Position numbers and translations under genes: made by a program
Source: Acidihalobacter ferrooxydans
GTDB taxonomy: Bacteria > Pseudomonadota > Gammaproteobacteria > DSM-5130 > Acidihalobacteraceae
DNA: 64,000 nt
NCBI RefSeq assembly: GCF_001975725.1
Contig: NZ_CP019434.1
Location: 2,430,606 to 2,494,605, forward strand
Direction: 5' to 3'
In this document: positions 189 through 5,994 of the stretch, one piece after another
How positions within the stretch are numbered: the first letter of the stretch is position 1
How the letters are laid out: each line of letters begins with the position of its first letter
The notes under the pieces: generated by a model
Seen by the model: only the letters and a program-made list of their open reading frames with translations
What the model was told of the DNA's origin: nothing
The model's database searches: none

Positions 189-1039
189 GGCTGGACCAGT
201 TCCTAGGGGACCGCTATCTCGATGAGATCAATCGTGACCTGATCGAGGGGATTGGAGAAGTGAAAAGAGAAAAGTGTACAGCTGCGACGGTCAATCGCTA
301 TCTCGCGCTGATCCGCTCGATTTTAAGAGCAGCACGTGATGACTGGGAGTGGATTGAACATGTACCACAAGTTCGTCTGTACCATGAAAAAACCAAGCGC
401 CTACGCTGGCTCACTCCGACGGAAGTGTCACGGCTTTTGATGGAACTGCCACCGCATCTCCGTGCAATGGCTATCTTCGCGGCCACAACCGGTCTTAGGC
501 GAAGCAACGTCACGCACCTGCGATGGGATCAAGTCAACCTGGAAAGGGGCATGGCTTGGATTCACGCAGATCAGTCCAAATCGGGTCGATCCATTGGTAT
601 CCCTCTGAACGGGGATGCCTTGAATGTACTGCGTCAGCAGCACGGAAGACATCCGGAGTGGGTATTTCCGTACCAAGGAAAGCCGGTGAAGCAAACCTCA
701 ACGAAAGCCTGGTATAGCGCACTCAAGCGGGCTGGCATTGAGAACTTCCGCTGGCACGACCTGCGGCACACGTGGGCGTCGTGGCACGTGCAGAACGGAA
801 CGATGTTGCACGAGCTTCAAGAACTGGGTGGATGGAGAACGTTTCAGATGGTTCTGCGCTATGCACATCTTTCGAGCGAGCATCTGAGAAGCGCCGCGCA
901 GCGGATCGAGGGCACAATTCTGGCACAACCGGAAGAAAAAAAGGCTTGCGATCACTCGCAAGCCCTTGATTCGATGGTGGCCAGGGACAGAATCGAACTG
1001 CCGACACGGGGATTTTCAGTCCCCTGCTCTACCAACTGA
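189..1039 (+). pseudogene. Tyrosine recombinase (phage/island integrase), 5' truncated by an IS end
   Basis: The C-terminal part of a site-specific integrase, about 280 codons. Part of the core-binding domain (LDQFLGDRYLDEINRDLI onwards) is followed by the catalytic domain, with the first Arg in TTGLRRSNVTHLRW, the HDLRHTWASWH box and the nucleophile Tyr in VLRYAHLS. The usual N-terminal 60-100 residues are missing: upstream sequence is the IS21-like terminal array, so the open frame entering from 149 is not native. The last ~30 codons run antisense through the tRNA-Phe terminator and into the tRNA gene. This is common for integrases placed at their tRNA attachment site. The gene is probably inactive. 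Confidence 0.8.
935..964 (-). terminator. Rho-independent terminator of tRNA-Phe
   Basis: Read on the minus strand, a perfect 9-bp stem GGCTTGCGA / TCGCAAGCC with a 4-nt loop is followed by a run of seven T. It lies 10 bp after the tRNA 3' end. Confidence 0.85.
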
Positions 1040-1050
1040 GCTACCTGGCC
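975..1050 (-). tRNA. tRNA-Phe (GAA)
   Basis: A 76-nt cloverleaf is readable on the minus strand. The acceptor stem is GGCCAGG / CCTGGCC with encoded CCA. The D arm contains AGCTCAGTTGGTAGAGC. The anticodon stem is GGGGA / TCCCC around the loop CTGAAAA, giving anticodon GAA. The T arm contains GTTCGATTC. The adjoining integrase suggests that this gene is the attachment site of an island to the left. A factor-independent terminator follows directly. Confidence 0.95.
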
Positions 1051-1086
1051 GAAGGATGCGCATTAAACCGAGGCGCGCCGCGCACG

Positions 1087-1362
1087 TCAAGCCCCTCCCG
1101 GCGGCACGTAACCTTCCGGCTTGGTTGTTTCACCCCCGAAGAGGAACTTATCCATCTCTTCTTCGAGAAATTTTCGCGCCTTGGGATCGACCGGGCTGAG
1201 CCGATATTCGTTGATGAGCATGGTTTGATGACTCACCCATGCCTGCCAGGCCTCCTTGGATATTTGCTGCCAAATGCGCTTGCCAAGCTCACCCGGATAC
1301 GGAGGGCGGTCGAGCCCCTCGGCTTCCTTGTTCAGATAAACACATTGCACCATACGCGTCAT
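1087..1362 (-). CDS. yggX: Iron trafficking / oxidative damage protection protein YggX
   Basis: A 91-residue protein of the YggX family, small cytosolic proteins that bind Fe(II) and protect Fe-S clusters from oxidative damage. It opens with [20 protein letters not shown], which holds the conserved near-N-terminal Cys7, and continues with [29 protein letters not shown] and [13 protein letters not shown], all family hallmarks at the usual length. It follows mutY by 4 bp and is surely co-transcribed. The mutY-yggX pairing is common in gammaproteobacteria and makes sense because MutY carries a 4Fe-4S cluster. Confidence 0.97.
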
Positions 1363-1366
1363 TGCT

Positions 1367-2437
1367 TTACTCCTGAGAATCCGATTTCGACTGCACCTGC
1401 AGAGCGTGGGCTAACTGAGCCACTGGCGCGGCGATACCGCCCGGTGGCGACAGACCGGGTTTATACCAGACCTGGGGCCCGTCTTTCACCCCAGAAGCGA
1501 CAAGGGTTTCCGTATCTGCCAGCAACGGGTGGATGCGTAGTCTGAAATGACTGAAGGTGTGCGTGAAAGCTTCGAGCTCCTGCCAAACGCCTCCCGCACC
1601 TGCAGCACGCTCCAGCCAGGCATCGGCCTCAACGCGCGAGGATACTTCCGGAAAACTCCACAAACCGCCCCATAGACCACTGGGTGGGCGGTGTTCCAGC
1701 AAAAGGCGCCCCTCGGCATCCCTCAATAAGAGGAACCAGGCTTCGCGCTCGGGCAACTCGCGCCGCGGGCGCGGGGTGGGTAATTCGCGTTGCCTTCCCG
1801 TCCGACGCGCGACGCAATCTGCGGCCAACGGGCACTGTCCGCAGGCGGGTTGAGCACGGGTGCATAACGTCGCGCCAAGATCCATCATCGCCTGCGTATA
1901 CGACCCGGCCTCGCGTTCCGGCGTATGGCGTTCGGCCAAACGCCACAACTGGCGCAGGACAGCGTTTGTACCGGCCCAGCCTTCAACACCGTAGTAACGG
2001 CACAATACGCGTTTGACGTTACCATCGAGAATCGGCTGGGCCTGACCACAGGCGAGCGACAGAATGGCGCCGGCGGTGGAGCGGCCGATGCCGGGCAAAG
2101 CGCACAGGGCATCCAGGTCATCCGGCACGTCGCCCGCATGCTGCGCCACGATCCTCTGTGCGGCCTTGTGCAGGTTGCGTGCACGGGCATAGTAGCCAAG
2201 GCCGGACCAGTGGCGGAGAACATCGTCGAGCGGTGCGCTGGCCAACATCCGGACATTCGGAAATTGCGCCATGAACCGCTCGAAATATGGGATCACGGTG
2301 GCAACCTGGGTCTGCTGCAACATGATTTCCGACACCCAGACGCGATAGGGCGTGGGCTGATGCTGCCAGGGCAGATCCTTGCGACCATTATCGCGCCACC
2401 AGGCAAGCACCCGCCGGCTGAAAGCGTCGGCACTCAT
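1367..2437 (-). CDS. mutY: Adenine DNA glycosylase MutY
   Basis: Removes adenine mispaired with 8-oxoguanine in base excision repair. With the start at MSADAFSRR, the catalytic residues fall at Glu37 (SEIMLQQTQ) and Asp138 (ILDGNVKRV), the E. coli numbering, which supports this start over the longer open frame to 2491. The helix-hairpin-helix is [10 protein letters not shown] (114-123). The 4Fe-4S cysteines are 192, 199, 202 and 208 (C-x6-C-x2-C-x5-C). A NUDIX-like C-terminal domain for 8-oxoG recognition occupies about residues 225-350. The protein is 356 residues, the family norm, and the gene is the first of the mutY-yggX pair. Confidence 0.96.
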
Positions 2438-2526
2438 ACCATCAGTAAGGCGATGCGGCTGCGCCCGTCGCCAACATGCTGCCGCAAACACCTCATCCCC
2501 TGTGCGCCCTGACTGTGCTCGCCTGC

Positions 2527-4401
2527 TCAGAACAAACCCTTGAGGCTGCTGGGCAGCTGTTTCTGTAACTCCTGCTTGAGTTTGTCGGCTTGCTTGTTCA
2601 GTTCCTTTTGCGCCTGTTTTTTAGCCGCTTCCTGAAGCACGCTGGCAAGTTCGATTTTGTAGCCCAGATGATCGAATGGACCGCTGATTTTTAGCGGAAT
2701 GACGCTGCCTGTACCGTGGACGTTGGAGAACTCGAGCACATAATCGACCCGCCGCTTGACCAGATCGGCAGTACCGTGACCTGCCGCCTTGAACCTGATC
2801 GCATTGAGCAGCAGGTTCTGGTTGCTGATCACCCCGGAGTTCACGTTCGCCGTGCCGGTCAGCGAAGCGAAGTGAGTCTCCTTCCGGCTGCCGGACTTGG
2901 TCTTGTGCAGAATGGCCATAAGCGTCTGGACCGTGCTGGCCAGTCTGGAATGCTGCACAGAGCCATCCGTGACGGCCAGTGCAAGCTGCCCGTTCAGACC
3001 GCGCATCAGTCCATTGACCGTGTTACCGGCGGTGGCAAGTTTGGCATCGAACCTGGCAAGGCCGGTCATGTAGTTATCACCGGCATAGTCTTTCAGCAGA
3101 TCGCCGATCTGGACCTTCTGCATGCCGGCATCGATTGTGTACTGCGGCGTCACCCCGCGCACGTTCAATGTCGCATCGGCCTGCAGGTTCCCACCATAGA
3201 GCGATGCGGACACCGGAGCCAGATGCAGCACACCGTTGCGTCCCTTCAGCACGGCCTTGACAGACGTCAGCGTGAGTTTTTCCGCCAGCAAACGATCAAC
3301 GGTCATTTCGCCGTTCACCGTCAGCTTGCGCAACATGGCGACCGGCAGGGCAATTGGCGTGTTGTCGCTATTGCTTGCGACCGCTTGACTTGATGGAACC
3401 GCAGCCGTCGTATTCGATGTGCTCGCCAGCATTGCCATCACACGATCGAGATTGATCCCAGACGAATGCAGCTTGAACTGGATCGCCGGTCTTGCAAAGT
3501 CGCTGAGCGCGAGCGAGCCATCGGCCTGTGTTCCGTTCACTTTGAGCTTGAACGGCGCGAACTGCACCGCGCCCCCCTTTGCCGTGGACACTGCCAGATC
3601 GCCCGTCAGTGCCGACTTGATCTCGCCGTTGGGCAGGGAGTCGCCCTTGGCATCGACGTTGAAAACGATGTTCTTCAGCGTATAGCTGCCCTGCTCGAGA
3701 CTCACCCCGAGTTGGGCGTTCAACCTGGCATCGACGCCAAGCGCGGGCTTGGCGCTCTCGACATGAAAACTCAGCGACAACGGTGCCGATTTACCGGGGC
3801 CAAGCTTGCCGACGCTCAGGTTCAGCGGCGCCAGGACCATTCGCGCACCGTCTGCCTGATCCGTCCATGTCACACGCGCATTGCGCACATCGACACCGGC
3901 CACGGACAACGCAAACGGCGCGCCAGCCGCTGCTACGGCTGGATTGGCCTGCGCTTTATTCACGGCGCCCGCACGCGTAGCCGGGGCACTGGCGACCGTC
4001 TTGCCACCAAGACTCGCCCAGTTGCCGACCCCTTGTGCATTGCGTTCAAGCGCCAGATCGAGTCCGTCCACCACCACCTTGTTGACCACCAGCCGATGTT
4101 GCAGCAGTGGCAGTATCTCGACATACAGACTGACCTGTGCGACCCGCGCGAAGGGCTGGCTGCCGAATCCGGGCGGGTTGCTCAGGCTCACGTCGTTCAG
4201 CCGCAAACCGAGCCAAGGATAGATCGCCAACTGCATATTCCCGGCCAGCGTCAGCGTACGCCCGGTCTTGTCCTTGATCACGGCCTCGATCTGCGCCTTG
4301 TAGGCATTCGGATTGAACGTAGCAATGAAAATGCCGACACCGCCAACGACCAGCAACACCAGCACACCCAGGATCAGCAACAATCGTTTCAGCCATTTCA
4401 T
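2527..4401 (-). CDS. AsmA family protein
   Basis: A 624-residue inner-membrane-anchored protein of the AsmA family (AsmA/TamB-like, implicated in outer-membrane assembly and lipid transport). The start [12 protein letters not shown] gives a positively charged N-terminus and one membrane helix (about 5-25), followed by [20 protein letters not shown] and [20 protein letters not shown], classic AsmA N-terminal motifs. The rest is beta-rich periplasmic sequence. The AsmA_2 C-terminal region is recognisable near [16 protein letters not shown]. The tail is a Lys/Gln-rich, probably helical stretch ending in SSLKGLF. The longer open frame (to 4491) lacks family homology. The gene stands 89 bp upstream of mutY. 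Confidence 0.9.
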
Positions 4402-4539
4402 GCGGTCAACTCCGGCATCAGGTACACCCTGCCGCCTATGGTAGCGTGCCCACTCGCGCCGCGCAGCAACAGGCTGCGCAAGGCGCCACAAATGGATCGA
4501 CCCAGATAATCCATCGGGAGAGATAGCCTTGCGTGTTCT

Positions 4540-4658
4540 TTAACCCGAATGTTTCTTCGATCCGGCATCGCGCAACGATGCCGCTCGCTGAAGCGTCTTC
4601 CCTGTGATTCCAGATCGCTGTGCAATCATCATCTCGCCTCATGAACTTTCTGGGTTAA
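4540..4658. repeat. Family B short inverted-repeat element, copy 1
   Basis: A 119-bp stretch starts TTAACCCGAATGTTTC and ends GAACTTTCTGGGTTAA, an imperfect terminal inverted repeat. The right half (CTTCCCTGTGATTCC to the end) aligns by eye with the right halves of the copies near 29.2 and 50.3 kb. It fills most of the gene-free gap 4402-4895; the rest of that gap shows nothing recognisable. This is the most diverged copy. Confidence 0.55.
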
Positions 4659-4895
4659 ACTGCACTATCGGGCGCTGCACCGGCTTCGGTAAAGACCGAT
4701 CGGCGGGAAGCCTCTGGCCGACCGCGCAATGACGTCAGACACCGTACCGTGGAGTCGTCGATAAATACACGCCGCAAGCTCGGTGCGGCCCAGTTGATTG
4801 AGCGGCAGGCGGTGCCTGTTGGCGCCTCGTGCAACAGCAACGGCAGTGCACGGCGTAACCGATACGAACAGACCCTATGTCGGAGTAGAGGCTCC

Positions 4896-5357
4896 ATGCG
4901 CGGAAACAAATCCCCTCTTTTCAAACGCCTTCCTCATGTGCTGTGCGTGGACGAGAGCAACAGCGACCGCTCGCAGATGGCGGAAGGCTACCTGCATACA
5001 TTCGCCAGCACCCTGCTCGACGTGCAGTCGGCGGGCATGCAGCACCACGGACTCAGCCGCATCGCCGTACAAGTCATGCAAGAGGATGGCGTAGACATCC
5101 GGCGGCATTCTGACGAACTCATTTCACGCGACCTGCTCCTGTGGGCAGACCTCATCATCACCATCAGCGGCCCATCCGAAGCGGTGCACCTGCCGATTCC
5201 GAGCAGTGCCGTCGAGAAACGTTGGCTCATCGCCCCGCCAGCGGTTACCGGCGACGCAGATCCGGTCATTGCGTACCGGCACACACGTGACGAAATCAAA
5301 CGCCGCGTACAACAATTGGTCAACGCACTCAAACTCTCGCGTGGCAACGCCGCCTGA
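4896..5357 (+). CDS. Low-molecular-weight phosphatase / ArsC-like protein lacking the catalytic Cys
   Basis: A 153-residue cytosolic protein of the LMW protein-tyrosine-phosphatase / thioredoxin-type arsenate reductase fold. The P-loop region reads VLCVDESNSDRSQMAEG where active relatives read VLFLCTGNSxRSQMAEG. The nucleophile position of C-x5-R is therefore Asp19, with Arg25 and Ser26 kept, and Cys17 is two residues too early to replace it. The rest aligns (SAGM, VMQEDGVDIRRHSDELI, WADLIITISG). ATG at 4896 has GGAG about 10 nt upstream; a longer open frame begins at 4749 but has no family sequence. It is probably a pseudo-enzyme, perhaps a binding or regulatory protein. DUF2058 gene follows after 88 bp. 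Confidence 0.8.
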   Translation: MRGNKSPLFKRLPHVLCVDESNSDRSQMAEGYLHTFASTLLDVQSAGMQHHGLSRIAVQVMQEDGVDIRRHSDELISRDLLLWADLIITISGPSEAVHLPIPSSAVEKRWLIAPPAVTGDADPVIAYRHTRDEIKRRVQQLVNALKLSRGNAA

Positions 5358-5445
5358 ACGTGCGTCTACCGCGCCCGGAGCCGATACGCCGGGCCGTTGA
5401 CGCAGGCCACCCAGAAGCCAACCGAGCACAACCGAAGACGCACAC

Positions 5446-5994
5446 ATGGCCGGAACACTTTTCGATCAACTCAAACAGGCTGGCCTCGTCGATGACAAGA
5501 AAGCCCAGCAGGTCAAACGCGAGAAACACCAGCAACGCAAACAAGCCAAAGGCAAACAGCCTTCGCGAGACGACGCAGCGTCGACGCGCGCGGCCAAAGC
5601 GGCCGCACAAAAAGCCGAGCGTGACCGCCAGCTCAATCGTGAACGCCAGCAGCAACTGGCGGACAAAGCCGAGCAGGCCGCGCTACGCCAGATGATCGAA
5701 GCCAATCGCCTCAGCGGCTGGGAAGGCGACCTGGCACATCATTTTACCGACGGCAAAGTCATCAAAACGCTATACACAACCGCCGACATACGGGCACGGC
5801 TGGCCGCCGGACGCGTTCGTATCGCGCGCTGCGACGGCGGTTATGCGCTGTTGCCCTCCGTCACCGCCGAGAAGATCGAGCAGCGGGGCGGCACAGACGT
5901 GCTGATCCCGTTGCCGCAGGACACCGCACCACTCACCGACGAGGATCGGGAGTACTATGCGAAATTCGAGGTGCCCGACGACCTCATCTGGTAG
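5446..5994 (+). CDS. DUF2058 family protein (YaiL-like)
   Basis: A 182-residue soluble protein of the DUF2058/YaiL family, often called nucleoprotein/polynucleotide-associated enzyme, with no firm function. The N-terminus MAGTLFDQLKQAGLVDDKKA is the family signature. Next comes a very basic Lys/Arg/Gln/Ala coiled-coil region (about 15-85) with nucleic-acid-binding character. The conserved globular part includes HHFTDGKVIKTLYTT and ends with DEDREYYAKFEVPDDLIW. Length and both termini fit the family. It reads in the same direction as the phosphatase homologue upstream and may be co-transcribed with it. Confidence 0.9.
   Translation: MAGTLFDQLKQAGLVDDKKAQQVKREKHQQRKQAKGKQPSRDDAASTRAAKAAAQKAERDRQLNRERQQQLADKAEQAALRQMIEANRLSGWEGDLAHHFTDGKVIKTLYTTADIRARLAAGRVRIARCDGGYALLPSVTAEKIEQRGGTDVLIPLPQDTAPLTDEDREYYAKFEVPDDLIW

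Follow-up and report, generated by a model that had tools for sequence, protein, structure and literature searches.

A cysteine-less arsenate reductase homologue of Acidihalobacter ferrooxydans is probably a vertically inherited, non-catalytic binding or scaffold protein

We analysed a 64,000-nucleotide stretch of DNA (the window, GC content 61.9%) from the genome of Acidihalobacter ferrooxydans, which is a single contig of 3,448,835 bases (G000). The frame at 4896-5357 on the plus strand translates into a 153-residue product, P0001, with the loop region V-D19-E-S-N-S-D24-R25-S26-Q-M-A-E; we call this gene pseudo-ArsC, and its 12 orthologues, the window's copy included, the pseudo-ArsC clade. 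An upstream GTG at 4749 would extend the frame, but the orthologues share the N-terminus MRG..SP.F.R, which favours 4896 as the start. The gene, its landmarks and its neighbours are as follows.

1367..2491, minus strand: MutY, the next conserved neighbour
2527..4491, minus strand: AsmA-family gene, the divergent neighbour kept beside the orthologues
4896..5357, plus strand: pseudo-ArsC gene, 153 residues, Cys-less at the nucleophile
4926..4934, plus strand: Arg11-x-Pro13, invariant in the pseudo-ArsC clade (12/12) and not in canonical ArsC
4950..4973, plus strand: degenerate P-loop, residues 19-26, DESNSDRS (canonical CTGNSCRS)
5166..5168, plus strand: Ser91, where ArsC has Cys82
5187..5189, plus strand: His98, where ArsC has Cys89
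5217..5225, plus strand: Lys108-x-Trp110, Lys108 being clade-specific (12/12 v 3/46)
5235..5237, plus strand: Pro114, where ArsC has its catalytic acid, Asp105 (Asp in 46/46 rows outside the clade, 0/12 inside)
5304..5336, plus strand: C-terminal helix with Arg137 and Leu147, both invariant in the clade
5446..5994, plus strand: DUF2058 gene, where other orthologues have MoaC

The approximately 400 bases between AsmA and pseudo-ArsC (4492-4895) contain open frames on either strand, none with a Pfam match, among them 4655-4924 (minus), which was considered as a transposase remnant; these frames are perhaps what is left of an insertion sequence. Towards the start of the window, a tyrosine integrase gene (PF00589; 149-1039, plus strand) overlaps with its 3' end a tRNA-Phe gene (975-1050, minus strand), an overlap that likely marks the edge of an integrated element.

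Codons 19 (4950-4952) and 24 (4965-4967) both read GAC, and the translation thus bears out the preliminary description of this DNA, which had placed Asp19 at the nucleophilic Cys in the loop DESNSDRS. ArsC residue numbers were transferred by alignment with pI258 ArsC and by a joint alignment of 58 proteins, in which Asp19 corresponds to Cys10, Asp24 to Cys15, Ser91 to Cys82, His98 to Cys89 and Pro114 to Asp105, five positions that we take to be the functional residues of ArsC. Asn22, Arg25 and Ser26 are retained in the window protein; to that extent the rest of the loop is kept, as had been claimed, with the exception of Cys15, replaced by Asp24. What had been presented as a single Cys-to-Asp change is real at position 19 and is accompanied by losses at Cys15, Cys82, Cys89 and Asp105 that had been missed.

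The family matches of the window protein were far above chance. It matched Pfam LMWPc (PF01451) at 1.6e-7, with 32.1 bits against a gathering score of 23.2, and ArsC chains in the PDB at 3e-16; the match to NCBIfam arsC_pI258_fam (TIGR02691) had an E-value of 1.3e-25, yet its 90.1 bits lie far below the cut-off of 174.3. Thioredoxin-type ArsC is its closest family. By profile score and fold, the protein belongs to the LMWPc/ArsC fold superfamily (PF01451). It lacks what defines a TIGR02691 member, namely the nucleophilic Cys10, the Cys82/Cys89 pair, Asp105 and a score above the curated cut-off, and it has the marks of a pseudophosphatase, in that another residue stands for the catalytic Cys while the fold is retained and the gene is under selection. 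A separate canonical Cys-bearing ArsC, 38% identical to the window protein, is encoded elsewhere in the same genome (G000:C1:351257-351658). Its frame continues (L002, about 679-2397, minus strand) into a second domain, presumably resembling a domain of the glyoxalase/dioxygenase superfamily, and the same extension was seen in L003 and L028.

The AlphaFold2 model of P0001, made with 20 relatives, had a mean pLDDT of 88.8 and a pTM of 0.84, with pLDDT of 91-93 in the blocks containing the loop. Its best structural matches were ArsC structures (Foldseek E 2.1e-11, TMt 0.89; VIA-align Z 20.2, rmsd 1.4-1.7, with 133 residues aligned at rmsd 1.7), followed by chain FW of a trypanosome mitoribosome at VIA-align Z 16-17. 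P0001 is thus confidently predicted to adopt the ArsC/LMW-PTP fold; the fold had been proposed at the outset, and the Pfam and PDB matches agree with the model on it.

Recognised by tree and synteny, orthologues of pseudo-ArsC occur in 12 genomes from five family-level groups, with products of 147-165 residues. The window's family comprises five genomes, and the gene was present in G000 (the window's own), G002, G003 and G004; the last three orthologues are 52-57% identical to the window protein, and all four proteins have Asp at both loop places, 19 and 24. The sister genome G001 has only a canonical ArsC and gave no match to pseudo-ArsC, its AsmA-MutY locus included, and the f63 genome G302 also gave no match to pseudo-ArsC; the gene is therefore dispensable. 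Eight further members came from searching 369 class genomes with a profile (G339, which is the same sequence as L004, and G131, G130, G066, G199, G294, G052 and G190). When a profile of 12 rows was run on 368 class genomes, clade members scored at least 205 bits and the next match 137. In the phylum, where 398 genomes were searched, nothing passed 1e-33 except the window itself and L100, an ArsC that has the Cys. The orthologues formed one clade with branch support of 99/88 in a 57-row tree, which was built without L007 and L028 and in which L022 and L023 are long branches. The nearest row outside the clade, L053 (from G023), has the loop CTHNSARS, with Cys kept and Cys15 and the Gly changed.

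We compared residues between the 12 clade rows and 46 other relatives, leaving out L007 as a duplicate of L070. The nucleophile position held Asp in four orthologues, Gly in five, Ser in three (the f49 group) and Cys in none. Fixation of Asp is therefore confined to the family of the window (4/4), so the preliminary description's proposed check, that Asp be fixed in orthologues, came out positive in that family and negative in the clade at large; Cys in the orthologues, which it had named as grounds for abandoning its reading, did not occur. The P-loop Arg position held Arg in nine members, Tyr in two and His in one, while Ser or Thr was present at position 26 in all 12. None had Asp at the Asp105 position or Cys at the Cys89 position, and four had Cys at the Cys82 position. 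Among the 46 other relatives, Cys10 was found in 45, Arg16 in 46, Asp105 in 46 and Cys89 in 44. The sole non-clade row without the nucleophilic Cys was L023 (Galbibacter, 5016-5426), with Gly at the nucleophile (GNENSCRS) and both Arg and Asp kept; it falls outside the clade and is a separate, independent loss of Cys.

A different set of residues is invariant within the clade. Arg11, Pro13, Lys108 and Leu147 are present in 12/12 members and are not features of canonical ArsC, and Arg10 and Arg69 reach 10/12. Trp83, Trp110 and Arg137 are also invariant in the clade, and common in canonical ArsC too.

The reading frame was open in all 12 orthologues, and across nine orthologue pairs dN/dS was 0.13-0.54 with pS of 0.35-0.69 (Nei-Gojobori), the highest ratio belonging to the pair L048/L051; several of the pairs have dS values close to saturation, which makes the exact ratios soft. 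The gene is under purifying selection, as the earlier judgement that it is functional rather than decaying had supposed. That we are looking at a decaying pseudogene, as the lost catalytic residues and the missing gene in G001 might suggest, is accordingly highly improbable, given the intact frames and dN/dS values and the residues and synteny kept over five family-level groups. A sequencing error or a strain-specific change has next to no probability, and nothing was found in its favour: G002, G003 and G004 have the same Asp pair, and a Cys codon (TGC or TGT) differs from GAC by two bases, so a single miscalled base cannot explain either Asp19 or Asp24.

The locus itself is conserved, its common order being MutY, AsmA, the ArsC-like gene, MoaC and often MoaE, DegP and DnaJ. 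AsmA adjoins the orthologue in 11 of 12 cases, the exception being G190, where the contig ends first; MoaC lies on the other side in 11 of 12, the exception being the window, which has DUF2058 there. These neighbours were absent from all 45 loci examined for the other relatives, in flanks that extended to 1.5 kb, or to 5 kb where available (two places among the 45 are given twice, L036 containing L003 and L007 being L070), and no canonical Cys version was seen at the AsmA/MoaC locus. For L053, the 1.5-kb flanks contained no AsmA, MoaC or DUF2333, and the AsmA matches of its genome lie elsewhere. The genes flanking pseudo-ArsC are divergent or convergent to it, without an operon arrangement, and no ars genes occurred among its named neighbours in the part of the nearby ORFs that was scanned. 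A mobile origin was rejected: no relative on a plasmid or phage reached 60% identity, and those listed with an annotation were arsC genes of ars clusters.

DUF2333, directly upstream of pseudo-ArsC in 5 of the 12 genomes, was considered as an obligatory partner and rejected, being absent from the window's family and mostly without pseudo-ArsC elsewhere. It was found in 93 of 369 class genomes, five of which carry pseudo-ArsC, and pseudo-ArsC adjoined four of 30 DUF2333 loci examined. No DUF2333 match was obtained in the five genomes of the window's family (0/5); the control genomes also gave none, though the model does match L004. Three DUF2333 loci without pseudo-ArsC (L112, L123 and L130) have the order AsmA-DUF2333-MoaC with nothing recognised between; with the order being the same, the slot is filled or empty by lineage. 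At two others (L120, 2470-3063, plus strand; L121, 660-1265, minus strand), a conserved frame of about 200 residues with hydrophobic stretches lies between DUF2333 and MoaC. The link between DUF2333 and pseudo-ArsC is probably one of shared locus, not of function, and we treat the flanking genes as leads only toward a partner of pseudo-ArsC.

The preliminary description had taken the Cys-to-Asp change for that of a trap, in which Asp19 would block turnover while the remaining loop still bound phosphate or a phosphoprotein. PTP trapping mutants are Cys-to-Ser and acid Asp-to-Ala changes. The retention of Asn22, Arg25 and Ser26 in the window's family would suit a trap, as would the precedent of STYX-type pseudophosphatases, which carry Gly for Cys and bind phosphoprotein partners (PMC8622459). 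Across the clade the idea finds no support: Asp stands at the nucleophile in 4/12, the loop Arg has become Tyr or His in 3/12 and the acid Asp is lost in 12/12, and these last two losses imply that across the clade selection maintains something other than phosphate binding. A carboxylate within the phosphate cradle should, moreover, repel or disfavour an anion. We therefore consider a trap unlikely as a general account, and allow it an equally small chance for those members that have Arg25.

Asp19, or Ser in the f49 group, might instead be a new phospho-acceptor or nucleophile, in which case the protein would be either an enzyme invented anew or a switch that can be phosphorylated. Arg25 is kept wherever position 19 is Asp or Ser (7/7), and phosphorylation of a residue other than Cys at this position has a precedent in PDB entry 4kk4, a YwlE C7S form whose title includes 'with phosphorylated active site serine'. 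Gly at that position in 5/12 members and the loss of the acid Asp in 12/12 speak against it, and we find it less likely still than a trap. The narrower version, that only the non-Gly members re-used the position, with Asp19 or Ser phosphorylated through the kept Arg25 as a small switch on the ArsC scaffold, is similarly far-fetched.

We favour, with a probability of about 0.78, a vertically inherited pseudoenzyme at the AsmA/MoaC locus that serves as a non-catalytic binding or scaffold protein. Its predicted ArsC/LMW-PTP fold has lost nucleophile, resolving cysteines and acid, and the gene is passed on vertically in a set of gammaproteobacterial lineages; the protein would act most likely as a protein-binding scaffold or regulator, binding rather than catalysis being the mode we infer. 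Since the nucleophile varies and Arg and Asp have been lost, it is something other than phosphate chemistry that the clade as a whole conserves, and the new invariant surface is the likelier working part. That surface would consist of the clade-specific Arg10/11-x-Pro13, Arg69, Lys108-x-Trp110, Arg137 and the C-terminal helix to Leu147, with the old anion pocket serving as a structural loop at most. In the window's family, Asp19 and Asp24, lying next to Arg25, probably close or neutralise the pocket; some anion binding is possible in members that keep the P-loop Arg (9/12; Ser/Thr26 in 12/12). Weighing against a binding or scaffold protein are the lack of an operon, the absence of MoaC beside the window copy and the missing gene in G001 and G302.

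Among known systems, thioredoxin-coupled ArsC of the S. aureus pI258/B. subtilis type shares with pseudo-ArsC its fold, length and general sequence (approximately 27-32% identity to solved structures), including the SAG, E-x-G-x-D and R131 motifs. Unlike it, the clade has lost the nucleophile, Cys82 (in 8/12), Cys89 and Asp105, and the window protein scores below the NCBIfam cut-off. Such genes should not be counted as arsenate reductases, of which a comparative study records four copies per Acidihalobacter genome except F5 (PMC7760498). STYX resembles pseudo-ArsC in having a dead CX5R loop within a kept fold, in its case through Gly for Cys (Cys120Gly) in a dual-specificity phosphatase fold, and in acting by binding (PMC8622459), the mode proposed for pseudo-ArsC. 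It differs in belonging to another catalytic domain family and in that one Gly-to-Cys change restores its activity, whereas the clade has lost further parts.

In the titles and opening abstract lines of the open-licence literature we found neither a bacterial Cys-less ArsC clade nor a bacterial LMW-PTP pseudophosphatase, and an open-licence search combining pseudophosphatase with arsenate reductase led to trypanosomatids only. The nearest published precedent comes from kinetoplastids, in which Tb09.160.2100 and its relatives form an ArsC that lacks the catalytic Cys (PMC2175518). It is likewise ArsC-derived, with Gly at the nucleophile (as in 5/12 here) and both other landmark Cys lost. It differs in keeping Arg and Asp and in carrying two long insertions (PMC2175518) in a chain of 263 residues, v Asp in 0/12 and lengths of 147-165 residues in our clade. 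Tb09.160.2100 is probably the mitoribosome assembly factor mt-SAF26, under which name the PDB lists a T. brucei LMWPc-domain protein (6sga chain FW), and our clade profile matches 6sga_FW at 1.1e-7. Pseudo-ArsC represents a clade of dead bacterial ArsC proteins, anchored by synteny, in which the nucleophile drifted to Asp, Gly or Ser and a different surface became invariant, offering a testable case of an arsenate-detoxification fold turned, as we suppose, into a binding protein, in parallel to the Cys-less ArsC of kinetoplastids.
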